Position numbers and translations under genes: made by a program
In this document: positions 61,744 to 62,727 of the stretch, piece by piece
Layout: each line of letters opens with the position of its first letter
How positions within the stretch are numbered: the first letter of the stretch is position 1
DNA from: Psychroflexus maritimus
Lineage (GTDB): Bacteria; Bacteroidota; Bacteroidia; Flavobacteriales; Flavobacteriaceae
Direction of reading: 5' to 3'
Length of the DNA: 62,727 nt
NCBI RefSeq assembly: GCF_011089875.1
Contig: NZ_JAANAS010000034.1
Span: 1-62,727 of the forward strand
Notes under the pieces: generated by a model
Told to the model about the DNA's origin: nothing
Seen by the model: the letters and a program-made list of their open reading frames with translations, nothing else
Databases searched by the model: none

Positions 61744-62391
61744 TTAAGGCTGAATTTCATTATCATCATCAACAAGCATCAAAATTTCATTAGGAGATAA
61801 ATAGAGTTTTTTTATATTTACCTTGTAGTGCTCAGGTAATTCAGTGTGGTTCAAAATAAAATTTTTGGTAGCTATAATGTAATTCCCCATTCCTTTCTGA
61901 ACAGCAAAAGTATCTGCTCTTTTTTCAGCTTTTCTGATATAATTTTTAGATAAAGAGTAGCCAATGCCAAAACCAATTAAATTAAATGAACTTCTGTGTT
62001 GGTAATCCAAAATATGACCTAATTCATGACCTAACCAACCAATCATTACTTTTGAAGGTATTTCATCTATTGAAAACTTTTCATTGTCAATGATAAATTT
62101 TGAACTAATGTTTATAAAATAAGACCTGTTCTTTTTTGACTTAAAAAAGTCTGAAAATCTTGGTTGAGCATTCATAAATGACTTTTTAAGGCCTTTAAAT
62201 CTAATTTCAATAACCACATCATTTAGTTCTGGAAAATGGTCGAATGCTATTTTAGCCTCCTCTTCTATTAATTTTGGAATCACTTTATTACTATAATGTA
62301 CCGTGTCCTCGTTCATTTGTTCAAAGTTTTGATATGCGTGAGTTTTTATCGACAGGATAATAAAAAGCGATAAAAATACTTTTAATAACAT
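61744..62391 (-). CDS. exported HExxH metallopeptidase-like protein
   Basis: 215 residues with a signal peptide (1 to about 19, ending IKTHAY). The zinc motif is HELGH (H122, E123, H126), and EKRAD (E156, A159, D160) matches the third-ligand ExxAD motif of M48-type peptidases. No membrane helices beyond the signal. The substrate is unknown. Upstream, at 62490-62600, lies a small transcription unit in the same direction that could be an independent RNA or this gene's leader. Confidence 0.78.
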   Translation of the reverse strand: MLLKVFLSLFIILSIKTHAYQNFEQMNEDTVHYSNKVIPKLIEEEAKIAFDHFPELNDVVIEIRFKGLKKSFMNAQPRFSDFFKSKKNRSYFINISSKFIIDNEKFSIDEIPSKVMIGWLGHELGHILDYQHRSSFNLIGFGIGYSLSKNYIRKAEKRADTFAVQKGMGNYIIATKNFILNHTELPEHYKVNIKKLYLSPNEILMLVDDDNEIQP

Positions 62392-62489: not shown

Positions 62490-62528
62490 TAAAAAAGTAG
62501 AGTCCTTACCGGGCGGTAAGAACTCTAC
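62490..62528 (-). terminator. strong intrinsic terminator of the small RNA/leader
   Basis: GTAGAGTCCTTACC (62497-62510) and GGTAAGAACTCTAC (62515-62528) pair at 13 of 14 positions with a 4-nt loop. On the minus strand six T follow (plus-strand A-run 62491-62496). The plus side lacks a T-run, so the direction is minus. Confidence 0.88.
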
Positions 62529-62559
62529 AAATTAACCAATCTATTATGAAAAACTTCAT
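62506..62559 (-). CDS. possible 17-residue leaderless peptide inside the small RNA
   Basis: Reads MKFFIIDWLICRVLTAR, then TAA at 62506-62508. The ATG lies 6 nt past the -7 element, where transcription should begin, so translation would be leaderless. The last codons and the stop lie inside the terminator stem, so a translating ribosome could affect termination. At this length a chance frame remains possible. Confidence 0.35.
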   Translation of the reverse strand: MKFFIIDWLICRVLTAR

Positions 62560-62565
62560 CCACTA

Positions 62566-62598
62566 CAAATATAAGATAGATGTAAACAACTACCAAAA
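62566..62598 (-). promoter_or_regulatory. full Bacteroidota-type promoter of the small RNA
   Basis: On the minus strand, -33 TTTTG (plus CAAAA, 62594-62598), a 20-nt spacer, and -7 TATATTTG (62566-62573). Both elements and the spacing are optimal for the Bacteroidota primary sigma factor. Confidence 0.75.
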
Positions 62599-62727
62599 TA
62601 GAAAATCATTTTAATAACTTTTTATCACTTTCTTGTTTTAGCCCCTATAAAACAAGAGTAATCTTTTAAATTTCGATTAGTATTCATTTTTTGTTTTTTC
62701 TTCAAGTTTTGAGTAAGCTGTAAAGTT
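62599..62727. other. window-end sequence without a supported feature
   Basis: A+T-rich sequence beyond the small-RNA promoter. I see no gene, repeat or hairpin that can be supported up to the edge. Confidence 0.5.

Follow-up and report, generated by a model that had tools for sequence, protein, structure and literature searches.

A multicopy small RNA gene of Psychroflexus, probably acting in trans, with homologues in other genera of Flavobacteriaceae

Results

A short RNA gene with its own promoter and terminator

Close to the end of the window (the whole 62,727-nt stretch of Psychroflexus maritimus DNA analysed here) lies a short element that very probably represents a regulatory RNA gene with four copies in this genome and homologues in other Flavobacteriaceae genera. 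We take it for a free-standing, multicopy gene whose product would probably act in trans, in the manner of FopS, an RNA of gut Bacteroides that governs the uptake of sugars. As read from the sequence, the element consists of a promoter, a short RNA and a strong terminator at 62598-62491 of the minus strand. The layout given in the initial annotation (TTTTG, 20 nt, TATATTTG, 6 nt, an ATG opening 17 codons, a 14-pair hairpin and T6) was found complete at its positions, as was the gene announced some 100 nt downstream. The features, all on the minus strand, are as follows.

62594-62598, minus: TTTTG, presumably the -33 element of a sigma-A (ABfr-type) promoter, going by the consensus as we know it; 20-nt spacing to the -7 box
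62566-62573, minus: TATATTTG, -7 box (TAnnTTTG), a pattern found directly upstream of the core in 26 of 36 genus copies; 6 nt separate it from the ATG at 62559
62490-62562, minus: small RNA gene of about 72 nt by covariance model R2, with a predicted 5′ end and the 3′ end taken from the T run
62533-62561, minus: conserved 5′ core GGATGAAGTTTTTCATAATAGATTGGTTA, the proposed seed region, delimited by column identity across copies
62497-62528, minus: intrinsic terminator hairpin of 14 pairs with loop GCCC (5′ arm 62528-62515, loop 62514-62511, 3′ arm 62510-62497), from fold and covariation
62491-62496, minus: T6 run of the terminator, from sequence
62506-62559, minus: 17-codon open frame plus stop, judged to be no gene as its length varies across copies; the stop (62508-62506) lies within the 3′ arm of the hairpin
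61744-62391, minus: downstream gene of 215 aa with a HELGH motif, starting at 62391, 105 nt past the stem

The RNA (62561-62490) folds at -24 kcal/mol (z = -4.31; none of 200 shuffles equal), and a weak 5-pair hairpin is also predicted inside the core of the window copy. Pattern scans of the window, weak evidence when taken alone, returned 6 terminators against 3.7 ± 1.9 expected and 31 promoters of sigma-70 type against 32.5 expected; the element is regarded as more than chance because the genome holds three paralogues of the core and because it is conserved through the genus. A Pfam search of the 215-aa HELGH protein gave nothing at E 0.01. A similar HELGH gene follows an sRNA copy at 109 nt in a second species (L055).

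Paralogues and conservation within the genus

A genome search with the 328 terminal bases returned seven matches, namely the query, three more cores (contigs 49, 82 and 40) and three repeat pieces. The covariance model R2, built from 17 copies (alignment A3), likewise gave four matches in this Psychroflexus-group genome; the window copy ranked top of the four with 95.1 bits, R2 being built partly from it. Between the end of the contig 82 copy and a convergent tyrS there are 4 nt; the contig 40 copy lies behind a LuxE-like gene and that of contig 49 behind a GTPase gene, these neighbours being named by likeness except where Pfam was run. The repeat next to the window copy (62634-62727, 94 bases) recurs with 96% identity at 1348-1441 of contig 49, next to an integrase-like gene, which we take to be an IS3-type transposase, with shorter pieces on contigs 34 and 42; it is probably an insertion-sequence remnant at the contig end.

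All 16 genomes searched within the genus, here the "Psychroflexus" grouping used by the search tool, carry 1-6 model matches each, 45 in total, including a single weak one (37.3 bits) in one genome and some cut by contig ends in another (G015). Some copies stand in tandem, spaced 139-216 nt apart. The model found nothing in 10 genomes from other families of the order. With up to three mismatches allowed, the 28-nt core was detected in 18 of 40 relatives (18 of the 25 in the genus) and in 3 of 296 genomes of the order, every carrier belonging to this genus; exact cores were seen in 22 named stretches, belonging to Psychroflexus species, Mesohalobacter, a Flavobacteriaceae isolate and MAGs.

After one of the 39 distinct core copies found was dropped (a contig end cuts it), 38 were analysed, and the 28-nt core GATGAAGUUUUUCAUAAUAGAUUGGUUA is exact in 31 of them. 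Mean column identity over 37 copies falls from 0.97 in the core to 0.50 on its upstream side and 0.48 beyond the terminator. Twelve further copies were fetched, of which 11 lie at a LuxE-like and/or tyrS gene and one (L242) elsewhere. Of five papers that mention both Psychroflexus and sRNA, none has such an RNA as its subject judging by title.

The terminator stem was examined in 17 sequences of fitting geometry, picked from the 38 copies. Their stems diverge in sequence, yet 97% of cells are paired, and both partners vary at 11 of the 14 pairs, a number equalled by 1 of 500 shuffles. The covariation score of 0.612 lies far above slid controls and compares with 0.297 in shuffles, none of 500 reaching it; further pair types show no excess in this stem (464 of 500 shuffles).

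Homologues in other genera

A lack of conservation beyond close strains had been named beforehand as an outcome that would refute the claim; homologues turned up in other genera of the family, and the claim stands. At E ≤ 0.01 the model found matches, many of them weak, in 61 of 249 Flavobacteriaceae genomes, two of which belong to the same genus. We read 28 loci from other genera and analysed the neighbours of 20 in which the core or the TTGGTT motif was recognised by eye. Fourteen of the 20 share the LuxE/tyrS locus, and in 13 of these the tyrS gene is convergent with the sRNA; the neighbours were assigned by Pfam for L169 alone (LuxE, tRNA-synt_1b) and otherwise by likeness of the protein ends. 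Five others share a second locus before a DUF3108-like gene, in four cases after an HPPD-like gene (Pfam run for L186 only), and one (L193) lies elsewhere. From the remaining eight of the 28, L189 has the motif and the others resemble terminators or chance.

Two local features were noted at these loci. At the second locus (L178, L184, L185, L186 and L190, near 1500-1620) an inverted repeat, AAGGGGTGGTTCCCTT, precedes ATTGGTTTTTCATAATTTAAAGTTTGGTTGGTTATTTAGG and the terminator, and a possible stem of ACTTTAA with TTTAAAGT, read from the sequence, would have GUUUUUCAU in its loop. At L169 (1517-1597) part of the sRNA core (AGATTGGTT) is matched by complementary sequence at the 3′ end of the convergent tyrS, which makes a long inverted repeat around the terminator and triggers a spurious mir-548 match.

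Weak matches also occur in 44 of 121 genomes of a presumed Flavobacterium group (E ≤ 0.05, best 47.7 bits). These were set aside; by eye, most of the 20 loci listed look like plain terminators. Five of the loci (L198, L206, L208, L211 and L212) show TTGGTTGGTT followed by a terminator directly after apparent protein-coding genes, and such units are perhaps 3′-UTR-derived RNAs with the same motif.

The 17-codon frame

Two readings had been offered at the outset, an sRNA of about 70 nt or a translation-sensitive terminator acting on the downstream gene. The former agrees with the element's own promoter and terminator, its paralogues and its conserved 5′ core; terminator control agrees with neither the frame nor the loci. 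Over the 38 copies the ATG-opened frame runs from 1 to 50 codons with no shared stop. The check proposed for it, synonymous codon substitution, found none in the invariant core across these copies, and the frame itself is not conserved. A T run is 5 or 6 long among loci and the sixth T shifts the frame, as in the contig 40 copy of P. maritimus (6 instead of 5 T); 6 T are present in 11 of the 12 further copies, two of which also miss the ATG. The expectation that the unit always precedes the same gene failed as well: downstream genes differ between loci, and since the LuxE/tyrS locus mostly faces a convergent tyrS, there is no gene to attenuate there. The frame is thus probably not a leader peptide.

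Two promoter types

Promoters were counted in the 36 genus copies with enough upstream sequence (2 of the 38 lacked it). TAnnTTTG occurs in 26 of them (0.039 in shuffles) and an ECF-like motif in 6 (0.005 in shuffles), one copy having both and five having neither in strict form. Of the 12 further copies, 10 present TAnnTTTG and one the ECF-like motif. The other-genus homologues at the LuxE/tyrS locus show TGTAAG-N15/16-CG[AT]C in 11 of 14 cases (0.006 in shuffles), a pattern that was read off the same sequences before being counted, and TAnnTTTG in none of the 14.

As the mark of a genome-wide regulon the ECF pattern was rejected, four genomes giving 24 matches against 40 for the reversed pattern. 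Behind its strict form only bacilliredoxin genes and spondin genes with a secretion tail recur in these four genomes: the former (BrxC) in three, at 9, 23 and 203 nt, and the latter in two, where a third gene (L261) only resembles one of this kind. Occurrences of TGTAAG-N15/16-CGAC were noted at L252, L265, L269, L262, L271 and L257, including a DM13 gene in one of the four genomes. It is possible that the genes behind this motif form a small alternative-sigma regulon. In PMC9723704 the SM6 promoters of Flavobacterium psychrophilum, which carry a CGT box and are ascribed to an ECF sigma factor, are described as driving T9SS genes and the sRNA Rfp11, which is conserved in other species.

Complementarity to mRNA starts

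Core pairing was computed against 400 start regions of the same genome, taken from 462,727 bases (20 stretches and the window). The mean energy is -10.1 kcal/mol versus -9.4 kcal/mol for shuffled cores (4 of 80 equal), and the best site reaches -24.1 kcal/mol (1 of 80 shuffles). Counts of start regions under -15 or -18 kcal/mol are ordinary, 22 and 12 of the 80 shuffled cores giving at least as many, and the mean for mid-gene windows is slightly more favourable than that for start regions (-10.6 versus -10.1 kcal/mol). Contiguous core matches of 8-10 nt are found in 49 of 400 start regions versus 14 of 1200 mid-gene windows, mostly because of the common ATGAAAAA. Core complementarity to mRNA starts is only weakly above chance.

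The best site, at the start of a 161-aa protein that looks exported, was discarded as a target: the gene is present in 3 of 26 genomes and the homologues inspected lack the site (-13.8 and -15.4 kcal/mol). For SusC mRNAs, 39 of 40 fetched TIGR04056 start regions were usable (one is cut by a contig end). As a group they average -11.9 versus -10.3 kcal/mol for shuffled cores (5 of 200 equal). No strong target stands out among them, the best of the 39 starts, at -16.8 kcal/mol, being matched by 107 of 200 shuffled cores.

Comparison with FopS and other named sRNAs

The statement that the RNA fits no named family holds at Rfam cut-offs, none of which was reached in a scan of the window, and needs qualifying in that FopS comes close in design and perhaps in descent. 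FopS (BTncRNA_FopS, RF04319) is the best match at relaxed thresholds, covering the full length with 23.8 bits against a gathering score of 56 (E 0.055 for 121 bases). RF04319 had no match at E ≤ 0.01 in genomes G000 and G013, and FopS was missing from the Rfam results for 16 loci, a scan whose filters tighten as more sequence is entered. According to PMC11697453, FopS has 12-15 copies in Bacteroides and a 5′ seed that pairs at start codons; through pairing near the start codon it represses translation of SusC, an effect that RbpB counteracts.

Several traits of FopS from Bacteroides thetaiotaomicron recur here: an RNA of about 70 nt, multicopy (1-6 matches per genome against the 12-15 reported for Bacteroides), with an unpaired 5′ region followed by a terminator hairpin, as indicated by fold and covariation, and sigma-ABfr promoters of the TAnnTTTG type. 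The core elements GUUUUUCA, UAUUAGAUU and GGUUA stand in shared order, and the core alignment places GUUUUUCA, UAAUAGAUU and GGUUA with two 3-nt gaps between them; aligned letters are identical at 21 of 22 positions for Psychroflexus and at 22 of 22 for L169. Among 3000 shuffled FopS cores, 22-30 score as well with Psychroflexus, 2-3 with L169, 4-14 with L174 and 206-501 with the form found at the HPPD locus; the corresponding numbers for 400 reverse-complemented start regions are 1, 0, 1 and 11-68.

Other observations set the two RNAs apart. Besides the core gaps and a score far under the gathering score, L169 reaches only 16.6 bits with RF04319, below unrelated families, though its core aligns better. 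In the reverse search, R2 run on 10 loci scored the FopS locus L063 in the same register at 13.1 bits, under the off-register L066 (18.6) and L068 (17.1). Two sub-threshold FopS matches in other families, L065 (antisense to an apparent gene start) and L066, were not regarded as homologues. RRM_1 (PF00076), the domain of the partner RbpB, was absent from all 16 genus genomes; the same search detected it in 2 of the 10 genomes from other families and in Bacteroides ihuae, the control. There is, moreover, no strong site at SusC starts, and in other genera the homologues have their place at the LuxE/tyrS locus, behind an ECF-like promoter. Because the cut-off was missed, the RRM partner is absent, the reverse search stays at background and no strong SusC site was found, the RNA is not filed as FopS: it would work like FopS at most in design, and membership is not claimed.

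Comparison with other sRNAs is by published description. GibS of Bacteroides shares the R1 seed of FopS and differs in having a second seed, R2 (PMC11697453). Rfp11 is a conserved sRNA with the ECF-attributed SM6 promoter (PMC9723704), and its membership in the Psychroflexus family is only a lead. Rfp18 of F. psychrophilum is likewise conserved in its genus, but pairs through a third stem-loop where one strong hairpin is present here (PMC9723704).

Discussion

In the mechanism we propose, a sigma-A promoter would yield an RNA some 72 nt long that starts near 62562, ends near 62490 and is composed of a mostly unpaired, nearly invariant 5′ core and an intrinsic terminator that may also shield the 3′ end. 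This RNA would act in trans, its core GUUUUUCAUAAUAGAUUGGUUA base-pairing with mRNAs, probably around start codons, a position proposed because the complement of the core reads CUAUUAUGAAAAAC. Having several paralogues would raise the dose and allow separate promoter control. The ancestral copy may have stood with a LuxE-like gene on one side and tyrS on the other, probably under the control of an ECF-type sigma factor; it would then have been duplicated in Psychroflexus, partly in tandem, most copies now carrying housekeeping promoters.

The conservation of the core could equally come from a protein-binding site, and the main rival to base-pairing is an RNA that titrates a protein, in which the core, above all UUGGUUGGUUAGUUAG beside the terminator, docks an RNA-binding protein and the copies sponge it. 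Across genera no part is better conserved than the motif UUGGUUGGUUAGUUAG; in Flavobacterium, UUGGUUGG with a terminator behind it is also seen by eye after other genes (L198, L206, L208, L211 and L212); and complementarity to mRNA starts exceeds chance only weakly. Psychroflexus copies, however, keep just part of the motif (GAUUGGUUAGUUA), FopS RNAs of the same layout do pair with mRNAs and the docking protein is purely hypothetical; we hold titration to be unlikely. A cis-acting attenuator or leader peptide for the downstream gene is largely refuted and very improbable. It draws on the window copy, the contig 49 copy and the copies of another clade, each with a co-directional gene of signal-peptide-like start 80-111 nt downstream, and on the recurrence of the HELGH pairing in the second species; against this stand the convergent gene at the tyrS locus, the unconserved frame and the change of downstream genes from locus to locus. 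Least credible is a mobile or repetitive element (REP or MITE-like) with an accidental promoter and terminator. The copies are multiple, tandem in places, and the window copy adjoins the repeat at 62634-62727, but the core is kept while its flanks are not, the loci are common to several species and the stem covaries.

A trans-acting sRNA remains our preferred reading, and within it the RNA might be a true if distant FopS member, sharing descent with the Bacteroides sRNAs and repressing translation of surface-nutrient transporters. The end-to-end match in register, the Psychroflexus and L169 core alignments that beat most shuffles, the multicopy state with TAnnTTTG promoters on both sides and the slightly better pairing of SusC starts as a group point that way; the low scores of both Psychroflexus and L169 with RF04319, the background-level reverse search, the missing matches in G000 and G013, the absence of RRM_1 from the genus and a second-locus form that resembles FopS no better than chance point the other way. 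On balance we consider membership possible but rather doubtful. More speculatively still, FopS and the Psychroflexus RNA could be one ancient Bacteroidota sRNA family, in which the single tyrS-locus copy of Flavobacteriaceae would be the sRNA branch of a stress regulon that is governed by an ECF sigma factor and includes bacilliredoxin and surface spondin genes, and would work independently of RbpB, and duplication with promoter exchange would have turned it into a constitutive multicopy regulator in Psychroflexus.

To our knowledge, few base-pairing sRNAs have been characterised in Flavobacteriaceae. Present in many genera, with a seed that can be recognised, the tyrS locus as common home and two promoter types, such an sRNA would be open to deletion or mapping in any culturable genus that carries it. 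If it does share descent with FopS, sRNA regulation of this kind would predate the split between Bacteroides and the flavobacteria and would need no RbpB.
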